From assembly GCA_027366585.1 (NCBI GenBank), contig DAHXNF010000022.1, positions 1 through 64,000 of the forward strand: a DNA stretch of 64,000 nt, given 5' to 3'. Position numbers and translations under genes: made by a program. The notes under the pieces are model-generated. The model had not been told where the DNA came from. It saw only the letters and a program-made list of their open reading frames with translations, and made no database searches. Positions within the stretch are counted from its first letter, which is position 1; each line of letters begins with the position of its first letter. Positions 1 through 19,010 of this stretch are shown here, piece after piece. Source of the stretch: Thermoplasmatales archaeon (GTDB lineage Archaea > Thermoplasmatota > Thermoplasmata > Thermoplasmatales > Thermoplasmataceae).

Positions 1-726
1 TTTATTCCAGATATCCTTTCCTGAACCTCATTTATTATTTTAGAGTTCACTTCTTCCGGTATATCCCTTGACAATTCAACATAACGAGAGGACTTCCTGA
101 ATCTTTCAATAGGATCATGAGAGATGAAATCTCTCTTGAAGTTCCCAACGAGTACTTTTTTGAACGGCATGAATTCCTCGGCAATTGAACTTTCCCTGAA
201 TCGTCTGGGAGAACGTTTGGACAGATCCAGCGGAAAACCATATTCCTCCCTAATTTTCTGGTATGTCTCCCATATCAGCCTTCTCGTGCTGTTTTCCTCT
301 TGTCCTTCATGTCTGGTTTCATTGACCAGGGACATTATAAATTTTCTCGAAACTCTCGCAGCTTCAAGCATCATCTGTCTCCTGTCATTCACAAGATGAA
401 AAACATGCACTGAGATGGATGCATCAAATGACTTGTCCAAGAAGGGTAGTTTCCTGGAGTCACCGATAACCAGGTTTTCAACTCCTTTCTCTTTTGCCCT
501 CTCCATCATTTTTATGGATAAATCAACGCCAGTAACAAGGAACCCTCTCTCTTGGAGAGGCTTCGCAATCCTACCTGTTCCAACACCAATGTCAAGAATC
601 GTTCTGCAACCTTCCAGAGCGGATACAATAGCATCTATCTCTTCATTACGGGCTGCTCCTCTCGTCGCATCATAAGAATCGGCAATATCGTCAAAGATTG
701 GTCGTTCGTCTATCGTAGAAGTACAT
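1..726 (-). CDS. Class I SAM-dependent methyltransferase, 3' part cut by window edge
   Basis: The minus-strand frame reads through to position 1, so the C-terminus lies outside the window. Motif I of the Rossmann methyltransferase fold is clear near 600 (ILDIGVGTGRI), followed by GFLVTGVDLS (motif II) and a post-I region around 480 (ENLVIGDSRKLPF). This is the Methyltransf_11-like pattern; the substrate is unknown. The conserved N-terminus (IFDDIADSYDATRG) is in frame, but no ATG, GTG or TTG lies between the stop at 729-731 and that region. An ATG at 724-726 is one base out of register: skipping one T would give MTSTIDERPIFDDIA. It may be a frameshifted gene, a gene with an unusual start, or hold a sequence error. 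Confidence 0.75.
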
Positions 727-1417
727 GACTAAACATGAATAAAATCATTATGACCCTTCTGAATCAGAAAATAAAATTTATCATTGAAATATAGTTAAGA
801 AGCTTAACCATTTACACTTCTGTATTACCGCCGGTATAAATTATAGAACAGCGTGAACTGCTCTTTCTGCCTGAATAGATATGTTTTCAGTTAATTTTGG
901 TTGATCCACCATTATGTGATCTTCGCAGACCGTTGTAATGTTTCTTTTAGTTTGGGGAAAAAAACACCGCAAGTATGCTGCAGAACATTGGCACATTCAG
1001 CTTCACTGAGACAATGAAACCTTCATGGAAACAGCTATGGAATATAATGGAATGGACAGCGATGAGGGGAAAGGAATGAGCGGCCACTTTACTGTGATCG
1101 GGATAGATGAGAAATCAAGCTGGAAAGGTCACAGATACCTGACGCCTGAATACTACAATTTCACATTCAGTGCAGGTACATTCTATGTAAACCAGACTCT
1201 CGAATTTATTTACTTCTATCCTTAATACTCTGAGGCTTACTGAAAATTCTTGCAGGGTTTTTAGTTATCACTCGCACCTCCTGCATGATAGTTCGGGAAA
1301 GCAACCCGACCAAAGGATTATAACCAATACTATAAGATGAAGATTGGGACAAACCAATCCTTATGAGAAAGTTAGAAGAGTTCAACTGAAGTTAGATAGA
1401 CAACGCATATCCCGTAT
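727..1417. other. Gene-poor stretch with a small degenerate open frame
   Basis: No convincing complete gene is seen. A plus-strand frame at 1025-1225 encodes 66 residues whose last part (GHFTVIGIDE, then YYNFTFSAGTFYVNQTLEF) has the Tyr/Thr/Asn-rich look of Thermoplasmata extracellular proteins, so it may be the remnant of a secreted-protein gene. Two short inverted repeats sit near the methyltransferase 5' side: gttaag/cttaac at 794-808 and taccg/cggta at 826-836. They could be regulator sites, but nothing proves this. Confidence 0.35.
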
Positions 1418-1711
1418 TCAATCCAGCCTGTGGATCCCCTTTGGAACATAGTCGAAGAAACTCTCGACCGTCTTACCTGACGACCATTCAGAGCGCATCC
1501 TCGTCTTTTTCTCAACCCTGCGCATTTCAGATAGTAGCATCCTGTTGAGCTCTCTCGCACTATCTCCCTCAAGCACTGCAATGATTTCAATCACTTCAGC
1601 TTTCCGGGAAACAGTTCCTGTGGTGCCGATGAACTTCTCAACAACAGACATGATGGCTGAAGGATTGTCGCTGCTGACAGTTGCTTTGAGTGTGAACTGT
1701 TTGCTTGCCAA
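1418..1711 (-). CDS. Small conserved-looking protein of unknown function (97 aa)
   Basis: I do not recognise the family. The first ~50 residues alternate strand and helix (FTLKATVSS, then a helix SAIMSVVEKFI, then VIEIIAVLEGD), like a small alpha/beta domain. The second half is strongly basic and helical (LLSEMRRVEKKTRMRSEW), which would suit RNA or protein binding. There are no signal or membrane segments. ATG follows a purine-rich AAGG stretch. Reading-frame composition looks genuine (charged helix, few Cys). It stands alone, convergent with nothing obvious, upstream of the tRNA-Leu in the same direction. Confidence 0.65.
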   Translation of the reverse strand: MASKQFTLKATVSSDNPSAIMSVVEKFIGTTGTVSRKAEVIEIIAVLEGDSARELNRMLLSEMRRVEKKTRMRSEWSSGKTVESFFDYVPKGIHRLD

Positions 1712-2071
1712 ATAATCACCTTCCTTGTGGGAATAGATTAGTCGGCTTATAGCACTTTGTGTTGAACGATTCGGAAATAAACTGTTTTGCGTTCTCTTTC
1801 TTCATGTATAGTACTGTGCCTGCCGCAGCTGTTCATTGAAATATATCATGAAACAATAAGAATTCCCGGAAGAAAGATCTTCAAGCAAGGCTACTTATAT
1901 TGCGATAATCAGGGATACGTAACAAAAGGACAGGTACATCAGGACATCTGGCGAAGTCCTAAATGTGTTCTTTTCAATCACAAGAGATTGAGGAGGATCT
2001 TAAATTCAAGGCTTTTTTAACCCCTCTTATTGCACCCAAGTTTGCCAGGATAGTATAAACCAAAATTAACA
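1712..2071. other. Intergenic stretch between the 97-aa gene and tRNA-Leu
   Basis: Apart from a 77-codon plus-strand frame at 1787-2020, whose product (Cys/Arg-rich, no recognisable motif) gives no reason to call it a gene, nothing is seen here. The 3' side holds the region downstream of the tRNA-Leu gene. Confidence 0.4.
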
Positions 2072-2156
2072 TGCGGAGGGCCGGATTCGAACCGGCGGAT
2101 TCCTACGAAAACAGATCTTGAGTCTGTCGCCTTTAACCTAGCTCGGCAACCTCCGC
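2072..2156 (-). tRNA. tRNA-Leu (anticodon CAA)
   Basis: Reading the minus strand, the acceptor stem GCGGAGG pairs with CCTCCGC and a discriminator A follows; CCA is not encoded. The anticodon stem ACAGA/TCTGT closes the loop CTCAAGA, giving anticodon CAA for UUG leucine codons. The T arm is CCGGTTCGAATCCGG. A long variable arm (class II tRNA) separates the anticodon and T arms, as expected for Leu. Length 85 nt, no intron. A TATA-like stretch (aaaaataaaatag) lies upstream near 2180-2192. Confidence 0.93.
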
Positions 2157-2204
2157 GTGCCTCCAAGATAACTCAGAATCTATTTTATTTTTGCAAGCAA
2201 TATC

Positions 2205-2441
2205 ATGGGTATGCCCGCAAACCAGTGGATCACAGCTACTCTCCATATAGAAATGAGCAATGAAAGGGCAATAGCGTTTCTAGAGAGTCTTAACCCCGAC
2301 AATCAGGGAAAATTAAGTACCAGCCTAAGACCTGATGGTGTCGATATCGTCGTTGAAGATAAGAAAATATCAACTATCGTTAATGTGATAGATGATATTC
2401 TGAGATGTTTTGATGTCTTTGAAAAAATAAATGAGGATTGA
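2205..2441 (+). CDS. pcc1: KEOPS complex subunit Pcc1
   Basis: A 78-residue protein with the beta-alpha-beta layout of the CTAG/Pcc1 family: ATLHIEMS, helix ERAIAFLESL, strand LSTSLRPDGVDIVVE, and a C-terminal helix. Pcc1 dimerises the KEOPS complex, which makes N6-threonylcarbamoyladenosine (t6A) at position 37 of ANN-decoding tRNAs; the catalytic subunit Kae1 is not in the window. Length matches archaeal Pcc1. It is transcribed divergently from tRNA-Leu across a ~48 bp gap that must hold both promoters (ctattttatttttgc), so the mRNA is probably leaderless or nearly so. Confidence 0.85.
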   Translation: MGMPANQWITATLHIEMSNERAIAFLESLNPDNQGKLSTSLRPDGVDIVVEDKKISTIVNVIDDILRCFDVFEKINED

Positions 2442-2443
2442 GC

Positions 2444-3394
2444 TTACTGCTCTTCCTGCTCAACTGCAAGTCCAAGTTTTTCCGTGAGTTCCTTGTACCT
2501 GTTCCTGATGGTTACCTCTGTGACACCAGCTACCTCTGCTACGCTTCTCTGCGTCCTGCGCTCACCGGTTAGAAGAGATGCGATATAAATCGCAGCAGCA
2601 GCTACGCCTGTAGGTCCCTTGCCAGAAGTCAGGTCGTTGTCCCTTGCGAGCTTAAGTATGTCGTTCGCCCTCTTCTTAGCTTCAGCGCTCAGTTTGAGCT
2701 TGCTGCAGAAACGGTTGACGTAATCATCAGGTTTCGACGGAATGATGTTAAGTTTCAGGTACCTGCTCATTATCCTGTAAGTCCTTCCTATCTCTTTCTT
2801 CTTAACCCTCGTCACAGATGCAATCTCATCCAGTGTTCTTGGTACATTCGTGAGCCTGCATGCAGCATAAATGGAGCCTGCAACGACACCCTCAATACTC
2901 CTGCCACGGATCATGTTCTGCTTGACGGCCTTACGGTAAATGACTGCTGCGCTCTCCCTAACATCGTTTGGAATGCTGAGATTAGACGCCATTCTTTCAA
3001 GTTCCTGAAGAGCCTGGGACAGATTTCTTTCCGCAGCGTTCGAGACCTTGATCCTCTTCTGCCATTTCCTGAGCCTGTATAACTGGGCCCTGTTCCTGGT
3101 TGGAATGGACTTTCCATAAGAGTCCTTGTTTTTCCAGGAAATATCAGTAGACAGCCCCTTGTCATGAATTGTATAGGTCATTGGAGAACCAGCTCTGGCC
3201 CTGGACTGGCTCTGGTCGGAGTCGAAAGCCCTCCACTCTGGTCCCTGGTCAATGAATGAGTCATCTATGACAAGCCCGCATGAGTTACAGATAAGTTCGC
3301 CTCGCTCGTAATCGCGTATCAGCTGCACTGATCCACACTCAGGGCACTTCGTAATATTTTCAATGCCTTTCTTTTCCTTCTTCTCTTCCACCAT
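2444..3394 (-). CDS. tfb: Transcription initiation factor TFB (paralogue 1)
   Basis: Archaeal TFIIB homologue of 316 residues that bridges TBP-bound promoter DNA and RNA polymerase. The N-terminal zinc ribbon is intact (CPECGS...CNSCGLV), followed by the B-reader region ([13 protein letters not shown]), then two cyclin folds, each with the family signature ([35 protein letters not shown]) and a C-terminal helix-turn-helix that contacts BRE ([19 protein letters not shown]). It lies 6 bp after gar1 in the same operon, a known archaeal pairing. A second TFB is encoded at 4913-5842 on the other strand. Confidence 0.97.
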
Positions 3395-3400
3395 TTTTAT

Positions 3401-3607
3401 TCACTCCTTTATAAAAAGTTCAATATTTGAACCCTCTTTCGTCCTTAACTTGACGATACCGTAAGGTGACTTGACTGGCCCAAGGATCCTTGTAACTTTC
3501 CCAACCGTGTTTCCGGTGCTATCGACAACCTTCGCGTAAAGGTCGTTCCTTGCAGCTTTGGTTACAATTTCGTCACCTATTGCAAACAATCTTTCAACCT
3601 TTCTCAT
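3401..3607 (-). CDS. gar1: H/ACA RNP protein Gar1
   Basis: A 68-residue single-domain protein matching the archaeal Gar1 core: a small beta barrel with GDEIVTKA, AKVVDSTGNTVGKVTRILGPVKSPYGIVK. Gar1 is part of the box H/ACA ribonucleoprotein that pseudouridylates rRNA, where it binds Cbf5 and helps substrate turnover. It lacks the glycine/arginine-rich tails of eukaryotic Gar1, as usual in archaea. It is the first gene of the gar1-tfb unit; a strong TATA box sits about 27 bp upstream of its ATG, so translation is probably leaderless. Confidence 0.88.
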   Translation of the reverse strand: MRKVERLFAIGDEIVTKAARNDLYAKVVDSTGNTVGKVTRILGPVKSPYGIVKLRTKEGSNIELFIKE

Positions 3608-3628
3608 TCGTTATACTTAATCACAAAC

Positions 3629-3644
3629 ACTATATATATATTTT
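3629..3644 (-). promoter_or_regulatory. TATA box of gar1-tfb
   Basis: Minus-strand aaaatatatatatagtg is centred about 28-30 bp upstream of the gar1 ATG, the spacing expected for a transcript that starts at or next to the start codon. No Shine-Dalgarno sequence precedes the ATG. Confidence 0.6.
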
Positions 3645-3813
3645 GCGTAAATCATAATAATAAATTTAGGGATACATATTAAAATGTTCATATTCGGATC
3701 TGTGCATCGAGAACCTTTGCCAATAAGGTTTTTTTACCTTCCAGAAAAATTTATGCACATCGGATGCCGTATACGATTCGAAAAGCAGTAATCCTTCATG
3801 ACAATACCTCATA

Positions 3814-4773
3814 GTGCCAGTAGATGTTAAGCTGCATGAAGTAAAGATACCAATTAGGGCACTGAAGCTTGCCTCTTTGTATGAGATCAGGTCAGACGGA
3901 TTCGTTGGGCTCGTTGATTCTGGAATGAGTGAGTCATCGGTAAAGATGCTGGAGGCTTCGGGAATGAAGGTTGAAGATATAGATTTGCTGATGCTGACGC
4001 ACCTCCATGTTGATCATGTCGGCGGAGCACTTGCAATCCAGGAGATGTCGGGATGCAGGGTTGCGATGGGGGAACATGATTACCGGATCTTGCGAGATAT
4101 TGCAGAAGATCCGGATGCATTCAAGGCGAGATATGTGAAGCGTGCATTAGAGTACGGTTTTCCTAGTGACCTTGAAACGTCAATCACAAGGGGATTGCCA
4201 TTTGACTCCAACGCTCGAAGGCTCCTGGATCTGAAGGTTGATATAACCATTGTTCAGGATGGCCGTCTCAACAGCGATCTGACATACATGACTGTCCCGG
4301 GTCACTCACCGGGATCGGTGGCTTTCATCGTGGAAGGACAGGGGCTCCTGTTCTCCGGCGATCACGTCCTGGAGAGAATTACCCCCAACATTGGTGTTTA
4401 TGAAGAAAAGCAGGACATGCTTGGAGAATACCTTGAGAGCCTGGACAGGGTCAAAGGCAAAGGATTCAGGGTTTGCCTGCCTGGACATGGAAGGCCTTTC
4501 GCCGGCGTTGACGAGCGAGTCGCCGAAATTAAGGAACACCATTCCTTGCGGCTCAAGGAGATCGAAGAATCATGCACTGATTGGTCAAGTGCTTATACTG
4601 TCGCCTCAAGGATAATATGGAATAGGGGAAGGCATCTTTCTGACATGAACGAGATGGAGAGAAATTTCGCTTTCGGAGAAGCGCTTTCACACCTGATCCA
4701 CCTTTCCAGGACAGAGCGCGTCGCAAGAAAGGAATTTGATGGCATAATAAAGTTCAGGAAAGAAGAGCCATAG
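3814..4773 (+). CDS. MBL-fold metallo-hydrolase
   Basis: A 319-residue metallo-beta-lactamase-fold hydrolase. The zinc-binding HxHxDH motif is at about residues 66-71 (LTHLHVDHVGG), later ligands are in VPGHSPGS and SGDHVLE, and the last histidine in LPGHGRPF. The C-terminal ~80 residues are helical, as in the lactamase-B/SLX-like hydrolases that act on thioesters or lactones; the real substrate cannot be read from the sequence. The GTG at 3814 is the first start after an in-frame stop and gives a normal N-terminus. It sits alone between two divergent tfb genes; a TATA-like aatttatgc lies near 3748. Confidence 0.85.
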   Translation: MPVDVKLHEVKIPIRALKLASLYEIRSDGFVGLVDSGMSESSVKMLEASGMKVEDIDLLMLTHLHVDHVGGALAIQEMSGCRVAMGEHDYRILRDIAEDPDAFKARYVKRALEYGFPSDLETSITRGLPFDSNARRLLDLKVDITIVQDGRLNSDLTYMTVPGHSPGSVAFIVEGQGLLFSGDHVLERITPNIGVYEEKQDMLGEYLESLDRVKGKGFRVCLPGHGRPFAGVDERVAEIKEHHSLRLKEIEESCTDWSSAYTVASRIIWNRGRHLSDMNEMERNFAFGEALSHLIHLSRTERVARKEFDGIIKFRKEEP

Positions 4774-4857
4774 TTTCCAATGAGACCTTGTCTGCTTGCT
4801 TCGTGACATAAATCTTCCCAGTTCCTAATGATAGTCATGAAAAATATCGATAGAAAC

Positions 4858-4909
4858 GGTTTTATATTGCACATAATATGGTGCAGGATTACATTTAGAG
4901 TTTGGTGAG
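4858..4909 (+). promoter_or_regulatory. Promoter and ribosome binding site of tfb2 operon
   Basis: A TATA element (gttttatattgcac, 4858-4871) lies about 45 bp before the ATG, and a Shine-Dalgarno-like ggtgag (4904-4909) is a few bases before it. Unlike the leaderless gar1-tfb1 unit, this operon seems to have a short leader. Confidence 0.5.
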
Positions 4910-4912
4910 TCA

Positions 4913-5842
4913 ATGGAACAGAAGGATGAAAAAAAGGTTTCCAAGCGGTGCCCGGAGTGCAACTCTGAACATTTGGTCAGGGATTATGAAAGGGGAGAGC
5001 TTATTTGCAATGATTGTGGAATGGTCCTCGAGGATTCATTTATAGATCAGGGACCGGAATGGAGAGCATTTGATTCTGAGCAGGATGACAGAAGAGCGAG
5101 AACCGGCTCGCCAATGACTTACCTGAGCCATGACAAGGGATTGGCGACTGAAATATCATGGTCAAACAAGGATTATTATGGCAAGAGAATACCGCACAAA
5201 AACCGCGCACAGATTTACAGAGTAAGAAAATGGCACCAGCGTATAAGGGTCAGCAATGCAGCAGAAAGGAATCTTTCGCTTGCACTGCAGATGCTCAACG
5301 ACAATGGTGCAAAGCTTGGTATTCCGAAAGATATCAAGGAAACTGCTGCCCTTGTATACAGGAAAGCGGTTGAGAAGAACCTCATAAGAGGAAGAAGTAT
5401 CGAGAGCATCGTATGTGCATCGATTTATGCCGCATGCAGGATGGTAAACCTGCCGAGAACGCTTGACGAGATTTCAAAGGCATCTGAGGTCAATAAAAAG
5501 AAGATTGGCAAGGCGTACAGGCACCTGGCAAAGGAGCTGAGCCTGAATATTAAGCCAACTACGCCTTACTCTTACGTGGCGCAGTTCTGCAACAAGCTTG
5601 ACCTGGATAAACAGGCAATAATGATGAGCGAGGATATAGTAAGGAAGTCGATCGAGCTTGGCATATCCTCCGGCAAGGGCCCAACTGGAGTTGCTGCAGC
5701 ATCCATCTACATTGCTTCTGTTGTACTGAAGAAGCCAAGGACACAGAAGGAGATAGCAAAGGTGTCGGGTGTGACTGAAGTCACCATCAGGAATAGATAC
5801 AAGGAGATTAGCAAGTCCCTAGGCCTAGAAGAAGTTGAATGA
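4913..5842 (+). CDS. tfb: Transcription initiation factor TFB (paralogue 2)
   Basis: Second TFB, 309 residues, close in sequence to the one at 2444-3394. The zinc ribbon (CPECNS...CNDCGMV), B-reader ([15 protein letters not shown]), both cyclin repeats ([35 protein letters not shown]) and the C-terminal helix-turn-helix ([19 protein letters not shown]) are all intact, so both TFBs should be able to nucleate transcription. Several archaea use multiple TFBs for condition-specific gene sets. Its last four bases overlap the start of the GMP synthase glutaminase gene, which links the two translationally. Confidence 0.97.
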   Translation: MEQKDEKKVSKRCPECNSEHLVRDYERGELICNDCGMVLEDSFIDQGPEWRAFDSEQDDRRARTGSPMTYLSHDKGLATEISWSNKDYYGKRIPHKNRAQIYRVRKWHQRIRVSNAAERNLSLALQMLNDNGAKLGIPKDIKETAALVYRKAVEKNLIRGRSIESIVCASIYAACRMVNLPRTLDEISKASEVNKKKIGKAYRHLAKELSLNIKPTTPYSYVAQFCNKLDLDKQAIMMSEDIVRKSIELGISSGKGPTGVAAASIYIASVVLKKPRTQKEIAKVSGVTEVTIRNRYKEISKSLGLEEVE

Positions 5843-6411
5843 AGATAGACGTAATCGATAACGGCGGGCAGTGGACCCACCGTGAGTGGAGGGTTCTGAG
5901 GAACCTCGGGGCAGAGAGCACCATTCTTCCAAATACAATAGAAAGTTCCAGGCTTGACGAATGCGACGGCATTGTGCTTTCGGGAGGTGCTCCCAGCATT
6001 AATTCGGAACTATCCAAGCTCGGTAATATCGCATCTTACATCGATGATCACGATTTTCCAATCCTTGGCATATGTGTGGGTGCACAGTTCATTGCCCTTC
6101 ATTTTGGAGGCCAGGTTGGACCTGGAACTGTTCCTGAATATGGCAGGAAAGCCGTGACCATTACGGATAATAACAAACTGTTTCTGGGTGTTCCAGAGCA
6201 TATCAACGTGTGGGAAAACCATAATGATGAGGTGAAGGCACTCCCGGATGAATTTGTAATCGCGGGCACGTCCGATACCTGCAGGATCCAGGCGTTCTAT
6301 CACAAAACAAGACCGATCTGGGGAGTGCAGTTTCATCCCGAGGTCGACAACACGGATTACGGCAAGGAAATGTTTTTGAACTTCCTTGAGGTATGTGGAC
6401 ATAAGATATAG
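5839..6411 (+). CDS. guaA: GMP synthase, glutamine amidotransferase subunit
   Basis: A 190-residue class I glutamine amidotransferase. The nucleophile is in ILGICVGAQFIA and the His/Glu pair in GVQFHPEV; the N-terminus DVIDNGGQWTHREWR matches archaeal GuaA glutaminases, which are separate proteins from the ATP-pyrophosphatase subunit. It supplies ammonia to convert XMP to GMP; the partner subunit is not in this window. The start codon overlaps the tfb2 stop (ATGA), so it is probably co-transcribed with tfb2, and a PRC-barrel gene follows 15 bp later. Confidence 0.93.
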   Translation: MKIDVIDNGGQWTHREWRVLRNLGAESTILPNTIESSRLDECDGIVLSGGAPSINSELSKLGNIASYIDDHDFPILGICVGAQFIALHFGGQVGPGTVPEYGRKAVTITDNNKLFLGVPEHINVWENHNDEVKALPDEFVIAGTSDTCRIQAFYHKTRPIWGVQFHPEVDNTDYGKEMFLNFLEVCGHKI

Positions 6412-6426
6412 TTGGAGAGAGATTCA

Positions 6427-6678
6427 ATGCTTGTTGAAATCACTAAGTTGTTTGGTATAAAGGTATATAGTCACAAGGGCTCTTTTGTTGGGGATATCAG
6501 TGACGTGATCATAGATTTTGATCGCGGGTCGATCTACGGCATTTACGTGGAAGAAAGCAATCCGGATCTTGTGGAGAATGGAGCTGCAATTTCAATCCCA
6601 TTCAGGATGGTAAAATCCGTTGACGAGGTAATGCTGTTGAAAAGCTTCCCGGAAAAGGTCAAAGTAAAATCCACCTAG
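6427..6678 (+). CDS. PRC-barrel domain protein
   Basis: An 83-residue protein consisting of one PRC barrel: ITKLFGIKVYSHKGSFVGDI, then SDVIIDFDRGSIYGIYV, IPFRMVKSVDEVML. Stand-alone PRC barrels of this size are common in archaea, with suggested roles in RNA processing or as cell-division adaptors (the CdpB family); which applies here cannot be told. The ATG at 6427 is preferred over an upstream TTG at 6412 because a ggagag ribosome binding site (6414-6419) precedes it at good spacing. It is last in the tfb2-guaA unit. Confidence 0.85.
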   Translation: MLVEITKLFGIKVYSHKGSFVGDISDVIIDFDRGSIYGIYVEESNPDLVENGAAISIPFRMVKSVDEVMLLKSFPEKVKVKST

Positions 6679-8343
6679 TTACTTGTGTAAAAAATATCCT
6701 TTTTTCCTTTCGAGATCCAGGTTTACGTATCCATATCTCTCGAATTGGGATACGCCCTTCACCTTCGAGAAGAGGGGCTCTATCTTCCCGTTGTCCACCG
6801 TACCGTCTGGTCTCTCAACGGAAAAATCCTGGGAATCTGCAGGGGACCACTGCAATATCCTGATCTTCTTAAGATCCTCGTGCGAGTTATCGGCGTATAT
6901 TATTCCATTATCTTTCCGGATCACGTTGCAGAGATCCTTCAACCTGAATTTTTCCTTATCGGCAATGGTGAGCCAGTCTTTACCCGGAATATAGATCTCC
7001 GGTTCTGCGCCAAGATGGTATACTCTTTCCCCCTCATCAGGGTTCCCCGGGTGAAATGGCGCTTTACTATTCATGTCCCAGCCACCAACGATCCTCAATC
7101 GCACCGGGTCTGGTACAAACCAGAGTCTCTTTGCATGCTGGTCCACGAACTCCTTGTTTATGGAATTGAATATTTCCCAAGAGAATTCTGAATCAATCTC
7201 TCTCATGCCCGAATTTACCCAATACTTCCTGAACGTATCCGGCCGGTAACCTCTCTTCTTCATTGCCAGGAGAGTCTGCAGCCTGATGTCAGACCATCCG
7301 CTGTACGTACCATCCCTGATCCCTTTCTTGATCAGGCTGGTCTTGAGCAAAGCTCCCGGAATATGCACCAAGCCATAATGATAATAGTGAGGTTTTATCC
7401 ATTTCATATAGGTGAAGATATACGATTGTTTTTCCGTGTTGTTCAGGTGGTCCTTGCCCCTTATCACATGCGTGAGTTCAAGGTAGTGATCATCGACTGC
7501 GACACTGAAGTTCATCATTGGGTATGCAAAATAGGTCCTTCCAGTCAATGGATGTGTTTCTTCCTTAACCCTGAAGGCTATCCAGTCCCTGATTGATGGA
7601 TTCGGATGGTTCAGGTCAGTCTTGACAACCGCAGAAACATCGCCCTTCCTGAAGGCACCTGAGATCATCTTTTCAAATGCTTCCATGTTTGTCTCAGGGG
7701 CCCTTTCCCTGTGAGGACAGGCCATGGAGTTAAGCTTGTAATTCTTGAAATCTGCCTGGCTGCATTCGCAGATGTACATTTTCCCCATCTCGATGAGTCG
7801 CCTTGCTTCTTTATAGTATAGGTCCATCCGCTTCGACTGGATCACGATTTCATGTACCTTTACGTCGAGCCACTCAAGATCTTCCGGAATCAGGTGATAG
7901 GAGTCAAGGTCAATGTTAGAGGGATTTGTGTCCTCTATGCGGAGAAAGAGCTTTCCGCCATATCTCTTCACATATTCATCATTGAGGATGGCCATCCGGG
8001 AATGACCGACATGCAGTGGACCGGATGGCGATGGAGCCAGCCTCATCCTGACCTCGCCATTTACATCTTCCAGATCAGGCAGCCTGTGTTCCTGGACGTG
8101 CTTCTCCTTGACTGCCAGTTCCGGAATAAGTGAAACTGCTTCATCCATTACCTTTTGCTTGTCTCTTGAATTTATTTCCTTCACTACTGACGAAACGAGT
8201 GCCGAAACTTCCCTGCCTTTTGTCCTGGCTTCAGGGTATTCCCCCATGATCTTATTGATCACAGATCCAAGGTCGGCCCTGCCTTCATGAAGATAGGCAT
8301 TCCTTAGCGCTATCTTCCTTATCTCCAGCTCATCGGGCAGCAT
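6679..8343 (-). CDS. gltX: Glutamyl-tRNA synthetase (archaeal type)
   Basis: A class I aminoacyl-tRNA synthetase of 554 residues, normal for archaeal GluRS. An N-terminal extension of ~100 residues precedes the Rossmann domain, whose HIGH motif reads PLHVGHS in RLAPSPSGPLHVGHSRM; further GluRS signatures are LRIEDTNPSN and HVIRGKDHLNNT. The KMSKS equivalent reads LKTSLIKKGI, then a beta-barrel anticodon-binding domain of GlnRS-like archaeal form. It charges tRNA-Glu, and in most archaea also tRNA-Gln as the first step before GatDE amidation. Its start overlaps the end of the upstream GTPase gene by 14 bp. Confidence 0.95.
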   Translation of the reverse strand: MLPDELEIRKIALRNAYLHEGRADLGSVINKIMGEYPEARTKGREVSALVSSVVKEINSRDKQKVMDEAVSLIPELAVKEKHVQEHRLPDLEDVNGEVRMRLAPSPSGPLHVGHSRMAILNDEYVKRYGGKLFLRIEDTNPSNIDLDSYHLIPEDLEWLDVKVHEIVIQSKRMDLYYKEARRLIEMGKMYICECSQADFKNYKLNSMACPHRERAPETNMEAFEKMISGAFRKGDVSAVVKTDLNHPNPSIRDWIAFRVKEETHPLTGRTYFAYPMMNFSVAVDDHYLELTHVIRGKDHLNNTEKQSYIFTYMKWIKPHYYHYGLVHIPGALLKTSLIKKGIRDGTYSGWSDIRLQTLLAMKKRGYRPDTFRKYWVNSGMREIDSEFSWEIFNSINKEFVDQHAKRLWFVPDPVRLRIVGGWDMNSKAPFHPGNPDEGERVYHLGAEPEIYIPGKDWLTIADKEKFRLKDLCNVIRKDNGIIYADNSHEDLKKIRILQWSPADSQDFSVERPDGTVDNGKIEPLFSKVKGVSQFERYGYVNLDLERKKGYFLHK

Positions 8344-9301
8344 ATTTCACACCTGGGCTATGGGTGAGCAAATAATCCACAAGTTCATCTAAGCCGTCTC
8401 CAGTAGATGCTGAAATAGCGAATTCTTCCGTCTTCTTGTCAGAAATGTCCAGCTTCGCCTGGACCCTGATCATTTCTTTCTTCATGTTTGCTTTGATCTC
8501 CATGAAAAGCTTCTCCTGAGAGTCCGCATCGTATATTGATTCCCTGCTTTTGTCAAAGAGGAATATGATGGTAGAGTCGATATGCCTTAATGCAAGTATG
8601 GCGTTCATCTCCATAGTATTACGATCAGACATTGGACGGTCGAGTATACCCGGGGTATCGATGATCTGGATCCTCTTTCCATTGCGATCAAGATATCCAA
8701 TATAGATGCTCTGGGTGGTGAAAGGATAAGGCGCAATCCGCGGTGTAGCGGTCGTAATCCTGGAAAGAAGAGAGCTTTTCCCTACGTTTGGCATTCCCGC
8801 TATAATGAATGTGGGCGTCTGGTCATCAATCTGGGGAACCTGTTTCATAAAATCCCTGCACCTGCCAAGAAACGAGAGATCGCTGTCAAGATCACCTATC
8901 AGTGAAGCAACCCTGCCATAGTACTCGCGCATTATCTTGTTCATTTCAGGCACCGAAGGCACATACTTGAGCTGCTTGATCTTCTGGCTGCTGAATTCAG
9001 TGATCTTGTCTGCTGTCCTGTCGAGCTTTGAAAGGCTTATCCTGTACTGATCAAGATCAAACATCATGTCCAGCAGGTTCCTGTAGAATGGGTGCAACGT
9101 ATCGTTTGAAGGAAACTTCTTGACCAGCTTAGTTAGGTTAAAAACCGTGGTTCCCTCAATGCTTGAAATCCTGTCCTGAATTTCCTTCCTGACTCGAGTT
9201 TCCTTGCGGGGGTGGTACGGTTCTTCCACCTTTGAGGCTTTAGAAAACGCCTTGTCAATTATTTCCTGCGATCGAAGAACGGTCGGTATCCTTGCAAACA
9301 T
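8330..9301 (-). CDS. NOG1-type GTPase of the Obg superfamily
   Basis: A 323-residue GTPase with an N-terminal helical domain (~1-160) typical of NOG1, a factor for large-subunit ribosome assembly. G1 is GMPNVGKSS (residues 169-177), G2 includes YPFTTQS, G3 is DTPG (IIDTPGILDRP), G5 is ISAS. The G4 motif, normally NKxD, reads AKLD (VQAKLDISD), so the base-contacting Asn is replaced by Ala while Lys and Asp are kept. It is placed upstream of and overlapping gltX, so the two probably form one transcript of translation-related genes. Confidence 0.9.
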   Translation of the reverse strand: MFARIPTVLRSQEIIDKAFSKASKVEEPYHPRKETRVRKEIQDRISSIEGTTVFNLTKLVKKFPSNDTLHPFYRNLLDMMFDLDQYRISLSKLDRTADKITEFSSQKIKQLKYVPSVPEMNKIMREYYGRVASLIGDLDSDLSFLGRCRDFMKQVPQIDDQTPTFIIAGMPNVGKSSLLSRITTATPRIAPYPFTTQSIYIGYLDRNGKRIQIIDTPGILDRPMSDRNTMEMNAILALRHIDSTIIFLFDKSRESIYDADSQEKLFMEIKANMKKEMIRVQAKLDISDKKTEEFAISASTGDGLDELVDYLLTHSPGVKYAAR

Positions 9302-9326
9302 TAGCTATCTACTGATCCATCCGGTA

Positions 9327-9512
9327 CTATGCCTTTTCCTTGATAGCGCCATCTATTTTCTTTTCAAGCTCCGGAGCCATCTCGAATACGTTATGGGCGT
9401 ACTTGAAATGTATTTTTACCCGGGGCATCAAATCCTTTCTTTCCCTGGCTTCATACTCGAAGGAGCAGTCATATCCAAGATCCTTGCATTTGAACGTGTA
9501 AGACATATCCAT
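9327..9512 (-). CDS. DUF1059 family small protein
   Basis: A 61-residue protein with the DUF1059 signature at its start (TFKCKDLGYDCSFEYEAR) and the histidine-containing second half (KIHFKYAHNV). Function of the family is unknown; the paired Cys and His residues could bind a metal. It lies 25 bp upstream of the NOG1 gene in the same direction and may be the first gene of that operon. Confidence 0.85.
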   Translation of the reverse strand: MDMSYTFKCKDLGYDCSFEYEARERKDLMPRVKIHFKYAHNVFEMAPELEKKIDGAIKEKA

Positions 9513-9588
9513 GTATAGAAGGCGGATATAAAAGCGATTTCTTGTATTCGCACAGAAATAGATTTAAATTTGGTCTCTATCTCTTCTC

Positions 9589-14232
<4,644 letters not shown>

Positions 14233-14604
14233 TGTGCGGAAAGCCTTCTGGGATCAGGAAAGTCTTAACTCTGCCTGGATGCACTTTGAATGCGTGGTCC
14301 CAATCCATGAAAATTTAGATAATGAAATGATTTTTTATTATAATAATAGGGCGTCTCACATTTCATGAAATGTCGCACAGATTTGCACATTATTAGCACA
14401 ATAAGGATTTTTGGACCTGCCTAAACAGCACATATCCCATTGATTATGTAGATCATGGACAATATTGTTTTGCCTGATGATAGAGGAGAAAGTACAAGGA
14501 TCGACAGATCATAAAGGTTCTTGTCCTGATGAAGATCTGTTAATGATTTCAGGATAAGATAATTATGAAATATTTTTCAATTGGATTAAAAAATGACTGG
14601 AGGA
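14233..14604. other. Intergenic stretch after gyrA
   Basis: The 372 bp between gyrA and the surface-protein gene hold repeat copy 1 and AT-rich flanks (ttttttattataataata just before the repeat, which could end gyrA transcription). No gene is seen. Confidence 0.6.
14349..14496 (+). repeat. Direct repeat copy 1 (~150 bp)
   Basis: This stretch (gcgtctcacatttcatgaaa through tgcctgatgatagaggagaa) is repeated in the same orientation at 16591-16740 with roughly 85% identity by eye. It contains the palindrome tttcatgaaa. The two copies bracket the surface-protein gene at 14605-16521. In this copy the internal hairpin seen in copy 2 is degenerate. No open frame is seen in it. Confidence 0.85.
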
Positions 14605-16521
14605 TTATTTGGATCCTCTCTTTCTCAAAATCATTGCTACTGCTGTACCAATAACTGCCAATGCCACAACAACACCGACAATTATGTATAGATCTGTGCT
14701 TGAAATCCCTGATGTTGTTGTTGGTGTTGTAACCTTTGAGAATGTAACAGTCTCCGGCACTGAATGCCCGTTCACAGAGAAAGTTCCGTTTAATGTGTGA
14801 TACGATGTGTTCGTTGAGCTGGCAGTGTACGAGTAAGATCCATTGATCAGGCTCACCGTGTAGGTTGATGCTGTCAATGGACCTGATGAAGGCATGGCGG
14901 TTATATTCAGATACCATGTTGTACCCGACGGCAGTCCTGTTTCCGTGAATGTTACCGAATAGACGACGAGCACGACTGTAACCGACAAGCTTACACTACT
15001 TCCACTAACTGTCTCAGATCCCGTGGATGGAGTTGCACTGTAGTCAGCTGGAACTATGACTGCGAATGAATACGTGCCATTTGTCACAATAAAATTGACA
15101 GTTGATGAGACGGTTGTTGTGGTTATTCCACTCAATGTAACACCCCATTGTGTTCCAGACGGCAGTCCTGTTTCCGTGAATGCCATGGTGTAGGTAGCCT
15201 GATTGGATGCTGCAAATGTAATTCCCTGGTATGCAGGTTGCCCGTCAACTGTTATGCTTCCAGTTGATGGGTAGATCTTGTCAGCAGTGCTGGAAGCAAC
15301 TGTGAAAGCATATGTGCCATTTGGTTCAGAGAACGAAAGAGTGGGAACGGTGGATGATAACAGTACGCTGTCCAGTGTGACATTCCACTGTGTTCCAGAC
15401 GGCAGTCCCGCTTCTGTAAACGTAACTCCATACATCTCAGCAGTTATATTTTGCGTCACTGACGGCGCAGTTATATCATCGGACTGAAGAGTAACAGCGG
15501 TTTGCGCAAGAGCGAGACCGGTCATTGTTGAACCGGTGGCAATTGTAATGGCCGTTTGTGAAAGTATTATTCCATAAAAGGATGCACCAGTTCCTATCGA
15601 CACTCCGCTTGCAACTTGCCAGAATATGTTCTGAGGCTGGGCTCCACCACTCAGAATAATGTGTGCTCCATTACCAAATGTAAGTCCCCCGGATATCTGG
15701 AAAATCCAAACTGAACTTGAATTGCCAGTGAGGGTTACAGATGTTGAGATGGATACTCCAGTTCCCCATTTGTAAAGGCCAGGTACCAGCGTCATACCGT
15801 TTAAATTCCCTGCTCCAAGGTTTACATAATTAGGATTGACTCTTCCTGCTGCATTGGTATATGCTGTCTGCATATCCCCCACAGCAGTTGTCAGTATTGA
15901 AGGTGTAGGTGATGCATATGTGGCTGCGTATACCTTCCCGGAAATCAATGATGAAGTGGAAAACTGTCCGGATGAATTCAATATTAATGAGAAACCTGTT
16001 ATGTAAGTGCTGCTTGCAGGGCTAACACCTATGTTACCTACAATGGAGGATGTTCCCGTGTTAGAGATTCCGGTTTTTGCCAGAATTGTGTAACTGCCTG
16101 CTGTTCCGAGATTCACTGGAGATATAGATACAGGGGCCAGTTTTGTAAATGTTATATTAACTGTAACTGCTGCCCCGCTGACAGTTACTGAACCTGAAGA
16201 TGATGTCGTGCTGAATCCGGACACGTTACCGACTGTGTAGGGGTATGTGCCGTCTGCAACAGAGAAAATGATAGTGCTTGTTGTCGATATTTCAGATGTG
16301 CCGTTCAATGAGACATTCCACTGTGTTCCTGATGTCAGTCCTGTTTCACTGAATGAAACATTGTACTGAGTCCCGGACACATACGGACTGGCCAAAACAC
16401 CAGAGTTACCAGAATTTGTTGACTGGTCCAGGAAGAGCAGACTTGACGACAGAACTAGTACAAAGGATACAAGAATAACTAGCGTTAATTTTATTTTATG
16501 TTTTTTATGTTGTTTTTCCAT
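14605..16521 (-). CDS. Secreted, membrane-anchored surface protein with DUF3494 (ice-binding-like) domain
   Basis: A 638-residue protein with an N-terminal signal segment (~10-30), a first FSETGLTSGTQWNVSL repeat (~50-125), a DUF3494 domain (~135-355), three more repeats of the FTETGLPSGTQW kind (~365-435, 443-520, 523-600), one C-terminal membrane helix (~608-631) and a basic tail. DUF3494 marks are LGTAGSYTILAKTGI, GNIGVSPASSTYITGF, LNGMTLVPGLYKWGTG, VWIFQISGG, AQPQNIFWQVA and SQTAITIATGSTMTGLAL. In other organisms this beta-solenoid fold binds ice or acts in adhesion. The repeats are common in Thermoplasmata surface proteins. The gene is flanked by two direct repeats and looks like an insertion between gyrA and fusA. 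Confidence 0.9.
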   Translation of the reverse strand: MEKQHKKHKIKLTLVILVSFVLVLSSSLLFLDQSTNSGNSGVLASPYVSGTQYNVSFSETGLTSGTQWNVSLNGTSEISTTSTIIFSVADGTYPYTVGNVSGFSTTSSSGSVTVSGAAVTVNITFTKLAPVSISPVNLGTAGSYTILAKTGISNTGTSSIVGNIGVSPASSTYITGFSLILNSSGQFSTSSLISGKVYAATYASPTPSILTTAVGDMQTAYTNAAGRVNPNYVNLGAGNLNGMTLVPGLYKWGTGVSISTSVTLTGNSSSVWIFQISGGLTFGNGAHIILSGGAQPQNIFWQVASGVSIGTGASFYGIILSQTAITIATGSTMTGLALAQTAVTLQSDDITAPSVTQNITAEMYGVTFTEAGLPSGTQWNVTLDSVLLSSTVPTLSFSEPNGTYAFTVASSTADKIYPSTGSITVDGQPAYQGITFAASNQATYTMAFTETGLPSGTQWGVTLSGITTTTVSSTVNFIVTNGTYSFAVIVPADYSATPSTGSETVSGSSVSLSVTVVLVVYSVTFTETGLPSGTTWYLNITAMPSSGPLTASTYTVSLINGSYSYTASSTNTSYHTLNGTFSVNGHSVPETVTFSKVTTPTTTSGISSTDLYIIVGVVVALAVIGTAVAMILRKRGSK

Positions 16522-16549
16522 GCAATATTAATATAATTTATTATATAAA

Positions 16550-16563
16550 CACTTTTATATATT
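16550..16563 (-). promoter_or_regulatory. TATA box of the DUF3494 surface-protein gene
   Basis: Minus-strand aaatatataaaagtg lies about 30 bp upstream of the ATG in a very AT-rich leader with no ribosome binding site, suggesting a leaderless transcript. Confidence 0.55.
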
Positions 16564-16590
16564 TTTTTTGACAATAGACTTAAGTAATAT

Positions 16591-16740
16591 GGTGTCTCGC
16601 ATTTCATGAAAAGGCGCACAAGTTTCGAACATTGTTAGCACAATAAGGATTTTGGGATATGCCCGAAACAGCATATCCCATTGATTATGTAGATCATGGA
16701 CAATATTGTCTTGCCTGATAATCGGGGGAGAAAAGCCAAG
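16591..16740 (+). repeat. Direct repeat copy 2 (~150 bp)
   Basis: Second copy of the element at 14349-14496, starting gtgtctcgcatttcatgaaa. It contains a perfect 9-bp inverted repeat, gggatatgc/gcatatccc at 16654-16662 and 16671-16679 with an 8-nt loop. About 40 bp after the repeat, catgagatac (16771-16780) is close to the reverse complement of the left edge (gtgtctcg), so the full element may reach 16780 with short terminal inverted repeats, as in a MITE. Confidence 0.8.
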
Positions 16741-16805
16741 TGAAATAATGAATATCGTCAGTTGTTAAAACATGAGATACTATATTATAATAAAATAAAT
16801 ATAAA

Positions 16806-19010
16806 TTAGAGTGCTGCGTAATAATTCGCATCGTATGGCTCAGGTTTCAGTCCTTTCCTTTCCCTGATCTTTGCGACAACCTGCGGTTGTAGTTCAGGAG
16901 GAACCCTGTCGTAGCCGGAGTTTTCAGAACTCCAGAGCACCTTTCCGCCGGTGGCTCCCCTGATTGCTGAGGCAAAACCAAACATTCCAGCGACCGGTAC
17001 CTTGGCAACGATCGTGATTTCTTCGCCTTCCTGATTCATTTCCTCAACCACGCCACGTCTCTGCTGTATCTCGTTAGTGACGGAGCCCATTATTTCCTGC
17101 GGCACGCTGATGAAAACCTTCGTAAGCGGCTCCATAAGGATCCTGTTAGCCTGGCACATTGCGCCATATATCGAATTTCTTCCGGCCGGAATGACCTGGG
17201 CGGGACCTCTGTGAATGCTATCTTCATGAAGCTTGGCATCGACCAGGCGCATTTTCAGTCCGTATACTTTTTCATTCGCAAGAGGACCGCGGTTAATCAC
17301 TTCAACAAATGCATCAATGAGCAGCTCCATTGTTTCGTCAAGATACTGGATTCCTTTCGTGACGTCGACCATGACATTCATGCCCTCTACTGCTTCAAGC
17401 CCTCTTGCCTCGTCTCTTGGCAAGCCTGCATTCTGGAGGAGTTCTATGATACCTTTGCGATCCTTGAATTTCGATCCCTGTGGTATCTTTCCATCCTTGA
17501 TTAACTGTATAACCTGTTCCTCGAGTGGTTCAACTTCAAAGTAGAATCTGTTGTGCTTGTTTGGGGACTTTCCCTCGAATGGGCCCCCTTTTCTTGCCAC
17601 TGTCTCCCTGTATACAACGAGCGGCTCGGAAGTGTTGACTTCAACCTTGTAGTCGTTCTTAATCCTGTAAAGAGTGATTTCAAGGTGAAGCTCCCCCATT
17701 CCTGAGATCAGGTGTTCGCCGGTTTCCTGGTTTATATCGATCTGGATCGAGGGATCTGCCTTAGATACATTCCTCAGTACTTCTATGAGTTTAGGAAGAT
17801 CAGCCGTGTGTTTTGCCTCTATTGCGAGCGTAACGACAGGTTCCGTATAATGCACCATTGGCTCAAATGGATCCATGTCCTGGGCTGAAGAGATTGTGGA
17901 TCCGGCAATTGCACCTTTCAATCCAATGATAGCTGCAATGTTTCCAGCAGCTATCTCATCAACCTGGATCCTGTCCGGGCCAACCATCATGGATAAAACC
18001 TGGACCTTGCTCTTGATGCTGCCTGTCCTCGATACATAGACTTCTGTGGACTTCCTGAGAGTCCCGCTGAATACACGGCCCACAGCAATTTCACCGGCAT
18101 GCGGGTCAATGATCATTTTTGTTATCATCATTGTAACCGGTCCATGGAAATCACAGTTGAGCATTGCCTTTCCAGCCTCAGACTCAAGATCCCCTTTCCA
18201 GATTTGTGGTATCCTGTATTTCTGGGCCTGTCTGGGATTGGGCAGGTGGTGTATAACCATGTCGAGCACTGTTTTGTGGAGTGGTGATTTCTTGGCAAGT
18301 TCCTTCTGCTTACCTCCTGCCACGAGGTCGACTACCTCCTTGAATGTAATTTTGTTTGCCTGCATCGAATGAACTGAGATCGCCCAGTTATTAAATGCGG
18401 AACCGAAGGCAACTTTTCCAGCCTGTACACTAAGAGACCATTCATTCTTGAATTCTTCTGCTGCATATTTCGAGATGAGCCTGTTAACGTCCATTATGAC
18501 TTTCTGGAATCTCTTCTGCATCTCTTCAGAGTTTAGCTTGAGCTCATTTATAAGACGGTCAACCTTGTTTATGAATAGAACCGGCTTGACCCGTTCCCTG
18601 AGAGCCTGTCTTACGACAGTCTCAGTCTGAGGCATGACCCCTTCTACAGAATCGACAACTATAACTGCCCCATCGACAGCTCTCATAGCCCTTGTTACGT
18701 CACCGCCAAAGTCTACGTGACCTGGTGTATCAATAAGATTGATCAGGAAATCCTTATTATCCAGCGTATGAACCATTGATGCAACAGCAGCGTTAATTGT
18801 TATACCTCTTGCCTGCTCCTGTTCGTCATAATCGAGCATGAGCTGCTTTCCCGCCAGTTCCTCACTCATCATGCCAGCGCCTGCAATCAGGTTGTCACTA
18901 AGTGTGGTTTTGCCATGATCAATGTGTGCTGCAATATCTATATTCCTGATGAATTCAGGATTTTCGACAATATTCCTGGCTTTCTCTATGTTTTCCTCTT
19001 TTCGACCCAT
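16806..19010 (-). CDS. fusA: Translation elongation factor EF-2
   Basis: The archaeal EF-2 GTPase (734 residues) that moves tRNAs and mRNA through the ribosome. G1 AHIDHGKTT, G3 DTPGHVDF and G4 NKVD are intact. The domain IV loop reads HEDSIHRGPAQVIPAGR, and its His is the expected diphthamide site targeted by Dph enzymes. It is the last gene of tuf-rps10-fusA, starting 16 bp after rps10. It ends ~65 bp from repeat copy 2. Confidence 0.98.
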   Translation of the reverse strand: MGRKEENIEKARNIVENPEFIRNIDIAAHIDHGKTTLSDNLIAGAGMMSEELAGKQLMLDYDEQEQARGITINAAVASMVHTLDNKDFLINLIDTPGHVDFGGDVTRAMRAVDGAVIVVDSVEGVMPQTETVVRQALRERVKPVLFINKVDRLINELKLNSEEMQKRFQKVIMDVNRLISKYAAEEFKNEWSLSVQAGKVAFGSAFNNWAISVHSMQANKITFKEVVDLVAGGKQKELAKKSPLHKTVLDMVIHHLPNPRQAQKYRIPQIWKGDLESEAGKAMLNCDFHGPVTMMITKMIIDPHAGEIAVGRVFSGTLRKSTEVYVSRTGSIKSKVQVLSMMVGPDRIQVDEIAAGNIAAIIGLKGAIAGSTISSAQDMDPFEPMVHYTEPVVTLAIEAKHTADLPKLIEVLRNVSKADPSIQIDINQETGEHLISGMGELHLEITLYRIKNDYKVEVNTSEPLVVYRETVARKGGPFEGKSPNKHNRFYFEVEPLEEQVIQLIKDGKIPQGSKFKDRKGIIELLQNAGLPRDEARGLEAVEGMNVMVDVTKGIQYLDETMELLIDAFVEVINRGPLANEKVYGLKMRLVDAKLHEDSIHRGPAQVIPAGRNSIYGAMCQANRILMEPLTKVFISVPQEIMGSVTNEIQQRRGVVEEMNQEGEEITIVAKVPVAGMFGFASAIRGATGGKVLWSSENSGYDRVPPELQPQVVAKIRERKGLKPEPYDANYYAAL

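Follow-up and report, generated by a model that had tools for sequence, protein, structure and literature searches.

How a gene for a surface protein came to lie between gyrA and the gene for EF-2 (fusA-like), and whether the two direct repeats at its sides record the event, is the question raised by a 64,000-nucleotide stretch of a Thermoplasmatales archaeon contig (DAHXNF010000022.1; hereafter the window). The original prediction described two direct repeats of ~150 bp, about 85% alike, bracketing a single DUF3494 gene, and proposed either a cargo gene carried between two MITE-like elements or recombination between repeats. BLASTN within the window agreed with this description: positions 14344-14491 and 16585-16733 share 85.4% identity over 151 columns (E ~1e-41) in the same orientation, and an open reading frame of 638 aa with an Ice_binding domain (PF11999) lies between them. 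The flanking genes, gyrA (+) and EF-2 (-), are both oriented towards the block. We consider it probable that the 2.4 kb segment 14347-16784 is a decayed, dead, and non-autonomous composite transposon that was inserted as a single mobile unit. The features of the locus are listed below by coordinates and strand.

11830-14232, +, gyrA, the left neighbour of the insertion, which adjoins EF-2 in the relatives G005 and G002
14338-14346, no strand, left copy of the 9-bp target duplication TTATAATAA, an exact match to the right copy
14347-14538, +, copy 1, a left-end IS fragment (IS positions 1-192) that shares 80% identity with the G021 IS in a 194-column alignment
14568-16587, -, cargo segment, made up of the DUF3494 gene, its own promoter side, and its 3' flank
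14605-16521, -, DUF3494/Ice_binding (PF11999) surface-protein gene, 638 aa (open reading frame, Pfam)
16588-16784, +, copy 2, a complete internal-deletion derivative (MITE) with both IS ends present
16785-16793, no strand, right copy of the 9-bp target duplication TTATAATAA, an exact match to the left copy
16806-19010, -, EF-2 (fusA-like), the right neighbour of the insertion

The repeats derive from an IS5-like insertion sequence

In a search of 61 relatives, the repeat sequence turned up in twelve genera, mostly at 72-85% identity, and a second query located it in 28 of the 77 genomes of the family. The repeat thus belongs to a dispersed insertion sequence (IS) family and does not occur only here, the case in which the original prediction would have given up the cassette idea. 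Within the 1.71 Mb assembly itself (85% complete) there were no further copies beyond chance matches of 16-24 nt, i.e., with two copies the repeat is not multicopy in its own genome as a MITE would be. Full IS copies measure 996-1000 bp and run from TAGGGTGTCTCA at the left end to TGAGACACCCTA at the right, and in the aligned copies (n=22) the left tip (TAGGGTGTCTCAcatttcatg) is conserved and is followed by a leader and an open reading frame, which continues for ~305 codons in relatives. Since the repeat aligns with the full-length IS from position 1 and leads into the transposase frame, it represents the left end of the IS.

The transposase domain was identified as DDE_Tnp_1 (PF01609, E 4.9e-25). 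In keeping with the IS5-family insertion sequences (NCBIfam NF033579 and NF033581), the element has this domain, a protein of ~300 aa, terminal inverted repeats, and duplications of 8-10 bp. The transposases score 74-77 bits (best 77) against the two IS5 profiles, below the curated cut-off of 140 and with IS982 close behind, and we therefore call the element IS5-like only. Intact copies with a transposase of ~305 aa were found in G013, G029 (Ferroplasma acidarmanus Fer1), G007, the congener G002, and G015, and none in the assembly of the window, which is 85% complete and in which repeats would assemble poorly.

The two copies in the window are unequal in structure, and their extents differ from those first described: the IS sequence of copy 1 runs to 14538, where a search for a right end found none, and that of copy 2 to 16784. 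The outer end of copy 1 (TAGGGCGTCTCAC) and that of copy 2 (CATGAGATACTATA) are both close to the consensus tip. The short terminal motifs reported for copy 2 proved to be true IS ends, with gtgtctcg (noted near 16592) forming part of the left end that starts at 16588, and catgagatac (noted at 16771) part of the right end that finishes at 16784. Specifically, copy 2 (197 bp) consists of IS positions 1-145 joined to 941-998, and its deletion junction carries GGAGAAA, a sequence present on both sides of the deleted stretch. An internal deletion of this kind is the usual origin of a MITE, and copy 2 resembles one in being short, in retaining the left and right IS ends while lacking a transposase gene, and in having its parent IS in relatives.

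Both copies carry an in-frame TAG (atgTAGatcatg) in the transposase frame and have several other private variants in common in the 22-copy alignment, which indicates that they descend from one copy that was already inactive. The copies have since come to lie 15% apart, so the structure is old. As in a composite transposon, DNA that is not IS lies between two copies of a single IS, although copy 1 is a left-end fragment only, and together the copies provide outer ends that could plausibly act as a pair (left 14347, right 16784). A functional transposase in a flanking IS is lacking, both copies being deleted and carrying the in-frame TAG, and the unit therefore corresponds to no more than a non-autonomous (pseudo-composite) form.

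A target duplication surrounds the whole block

The original prediction suggested looking for target duplications, and an exact one of 9 bp, first found in this analysis, encloses the whole unit (TTATAATAA at 14338-14346 and again at 16785-16793; 9/9 bp), 12 bp from the EF-2 stop codon. This is the single IS-typical duplication expected of a composite. Around copy 2 alone there is none, as its own flanks (CTTAAGTAA and TTATAATAA) agree at only 5 of 9 positions and it thus has no duplication of its own as a MITE would. Among the two-ended IS copies of relatives, 8/15 have exact duplications of 8-10 bp of AT-rich target and 7/15 have no duplication, and the signature is therefore not universal. 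A control combined each left flank with the right flanks of all the other copies, giving 272 mismatched pairings. Two of them matched over at least 7 bp, namely the outer pair of the window and an outer pair in G002 described below, while none of the remaining 270 reached 7 bp. The flanks in the window are very AT-rich, and the chance of the 9-bp match was 1.25e-4 under an order-1 Markov model of the flanks and 5e-4 by base composition alone (0.2% when any length of 8-10 bp is allowed).

The same junction was inspected in relatives for the empty state. In the congeners G002 and G005, gyrA adjoins EF-2 across a gap of 205-270 bp that holds no gene, MITE or IS, i.e., both the DUF3494 gene and the repeat are missing there. 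The joined flanks of the window aligned with the gaps of G005 and G002 no better than shuffled sequences did, the gap sequences being too diverged, and the empty site is therefore claimed at the level of gene adjacency.

The family of the cargo gene has moved among genera

The Ice_binding domain occupies residues 146-351 of the cargo protein (E 1.5e-71; 240.8 bits against a cut-off of 28.7). As read from the sequence, the protein has an N-terminal hydrophobic segment and a C-terminal hydrophobic anchor. It also holds several repeats of the FTETGLPSGTQWNVTL type, which occur widely among the large surface proteins of this family, and part of this repeat region is missing from the homologues of G002 and G003. 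In our own judgement the protein of an acidophile would be more likely to have a cell-surface, adhesin-like role than to bind ice.

The cargo and its Ferroplasma homologue are 79.7% identical in protein, 83.4% in DNA, and 71.9% at 4-fold degenerate sites. By comparison, EF-2, S10, and EF-1a are 33-35% identical to those of Ferroplasma at 4-fold sites, congeners are 27-44% identical to each other, and the chance level is 25-31%. The homologues in a third genus (G066) reach 60-62% and that of the congener G002 46%. The values for the cargo lie far above those of the housekeeping genes, which argues that the DUF3494 family moved among genera well after the genera had split. Judged by synonymous divergence, then, the cargo gene is foreign, in line with the earlier impression of a foreign-looking surface gene. 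A 40-bp stretch (14568-14607) shares 92.5% identity with Ferroplasma and 90% with G066. The distribution of PF11999 is patchy (8/77 genomes and 4/19 genera), and in G002 and G003 the gene sits elsewhere than between gyrA and EF-2. A tree of the DUF3494 domain had weak support and did not itself group the gene of the window with Ferroplasma, and we therefore base the transfer argument on the 4-fold sites. Carriage by a virus was considered and rejected, neither the cargo nor the transposase having relatives in viral_contigs.

Two DUF3494 genes of G066 have decayed remains of the same IS 130-370 bp upstream (L197 6466-6700 and L198 2066-2220). These fragments have the polarity relative to the gene that copy 2 has, and may point to a long-standing link between the IS and the DUF3494 gene. 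No IS fragment was found at the DUF3494 loci of Ferroplasma, G002, G003, and G032, and none of the homologues in Ferroplasma and G066 lies between two IS copies. Inspection by eye suggested an IS-to-gene junction common to the window, G066, and Ferroplasma, but the match was not significant when tested; hence we claim only the nearby presence and the polarity of the G066 fragments.

An apparent second composite in the same genus

On contig C5 of the congener G002 (L104, positions 330-5802), two IS copies of 855 and 999 bp in the same orientation bound a unit of 5,473 bp. This unit has an outer duplication of 8 bp (TTAATAGA) and unmatched inner flanks, and one of its IS copies encodes an uninterrupted transposase of 308 aa. 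Its cargo consists of two GNAT acetyltransferases, a glyoxalase-type protein, a pyridoxamine-oxidase-like protein, and one unknown protein. In G003 and G005, homology to the transporter gene beside the unit breaks off no more than 6 bp from the outer edge of the unit. The flank on the other side, of which 329 bp are available, gave no match, so that the empty site is one-sided. The unit is apparently a second composite transposon of the IS found in the window, with different cargo.

Two larger candidates in Ferroplasma (G013 182732-202260 and G029 1184115-1196193) were rejected as composites, their outer flanks being unmatched. In G029, two decayed IS copies lie 11 kb apart in the same orientation (L202 2117-2519 and 13214-14194), and their outer flanks share no duplication.

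Route of insertion and competing explanations

The cassette idea, i.e., a cargo gene between MITE-like elements, draws support from the dispersed IS, the outer duplication, the adjacency of gyrA and EF-2 in congeners, and the foreign gene. What we infer is a single transposition event, a transposase supplied in trans, and the succession of steps that gave rise to the copies and deletions. In this event copy 1 would have contributed its left end and copy 2 its right end to a legitimate outer pair of IS ends, which a transposase from an intact IS copy would have recognised. The gene would then have moved into the gap between gyrA and EF-2 together with its own promoter and its 3' flank, and the insertion would have duplicated 9 bp of the target (TTATAATAA).

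The recombination between repeats that was raised alongside the cassette idea stands as the main rival to transposition. It would take the form of a Campbell-type integration, in which a resident IS remnant with the TTATAATAA duplication recombined with a molecule bearing an IS remnant and the DUF3494 gene, and the crossover would leave the gene between two hybrid direct copies. The direct orientation, the outer duplication, and the variants common to both copies fit this explanation equally well, and the IS fragments near the DUF3494 genes of G066, with their polarity as in copy 2, make a molecule of IS plus gene plausible. However, such an integration requires recombination over ~150-200 bp of imperfect identity, and no resident remnant is present between gyrA and EF-2 in G002 and G005. 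The fact that the IS makes a like structure in G002 also speaks against it, although that structure is equally ambiguous. On balance we regard a Campbell-type integration as unlikely. A different possibility is that two IS derivatives were inserted independently around a gene which had arrived otherwise, the outer 9-bp match being a coincidence. A preference for AT-rich targets makes neighbouring insertions likely, and the copies are 15% apart and unlike in structure. Nevertheless, independent insertions would have to produce by chance a 9-bp match where 0/270 control pairings reached even 7 bp, and would leave unexplained both the lack of a duplication belonging to copy 2 and the in-frame stop and other private variants common to the two copies. 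We give this explanation little credence.

A reading without any mobile element, in which the repeat would be a conserved structured RNA or a regulatory element of the gene, derives from the strong hairpin in the fold of copy 2. The hairpin (16651-16682), which the original prediction put at 9 bp, is real and comes to 10 bp in the predicted fold (9-10 bp overall). Yet no Rfam match was obtained, copy 1 folds no better than shuffled sequences, and the sequence runs on into the transposase reading frame. Moreover, the hairpin is conserved in the full-length IS copies, where it encloses the start codon of the transposase. These full-length copies refute an RNA element, to which we attach virtually no probability. 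A hairpin over the start codon is a common means by which insertion sequences damp expression from outside transcripts, and its position here suggests translational damping in this IS family as well. Insertion as a composite transposon is the reading we prefer.

Relation to known elements and DUF3494 proteins

Composite transposons are the classic bacterial route for moving resistance and catabolic genes. In the layout of Tn5, related IS copies flank the cargo and their outer ends act as one pair (PMC10969869). The unit in the window is alike in its two IS copies, its outer end pair, and its single bracketing duplication, and it differs in having dead flanks without a transposase, an archaeal host, and a surface-protein cargo rather than resistance genes. 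Composite-like units are also known from the MITE-flanked class 1 integrons of Acinetobacter and the TIME-COMP elements of Pseudomonas (PMC10969869, PMC6382973, PMC4133298). On the one hand, in these as in the window, non-autonomous miniature derivatives flank the cargo, with the transposase acting in trans (as we propose here). On the other hand, both of those systems come from bacteria and the MITEs beside the integrons are identical to each other, whereas the archaeal, IS5-like flanks in the window share 85% identity and differ in structure. IS-type outer ends around passenger DNA are also a feature of mobile insertion cassettes (MICs) and transporter ISs (named in PMC3129680). These possess a single pair of ends, to which copy 2 of the window adds an inner left end.

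A non-exhaustive search of the literature outside subscription journals returned no worked archaeal composite transposon with duplications. As far as this literature shows, the kind of element is known, and what is new is the archaeal host, the occurrence of two cases within a single genus, and the cargo. We have, then, two apparent composites with different cargo from one IS family in one archaeal genus, and composites of this IS offer a concrete route, open to testing, by which surface proteins, DUF3494 genes among them, could have spread patchily in these archaea. More tentatively, the IS5-like family may be a gene-shuttling system in Ferroplasma-related archaea, one that formed composites repeatedly and in which an old pairing of the IS with the DUF3494 gene spread a surface gene across genera; we consider this possible, if rather doubtful.

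Type 1 ice-binding proteins with the DUF3494 domain (PF11999) have spread horizontally (PMC7783341, PMC6892780). The protein of the window is alike in having a full Ice_binding domain. It differs from the known DUF3494 proteins in its host, a Ferroplasma-related archaeon, and in the setting of the domain among FTETGLPSGT-type surface repeats followed by a C-terminal anchor. As a separate observation, the DUF3494 genes of G002 (L070, contig C65) and G003 (L071, contig C12) share 100% DNA identity along 1,425 bp, pointing to either a very recent transfer or contigs common to both assemblies.
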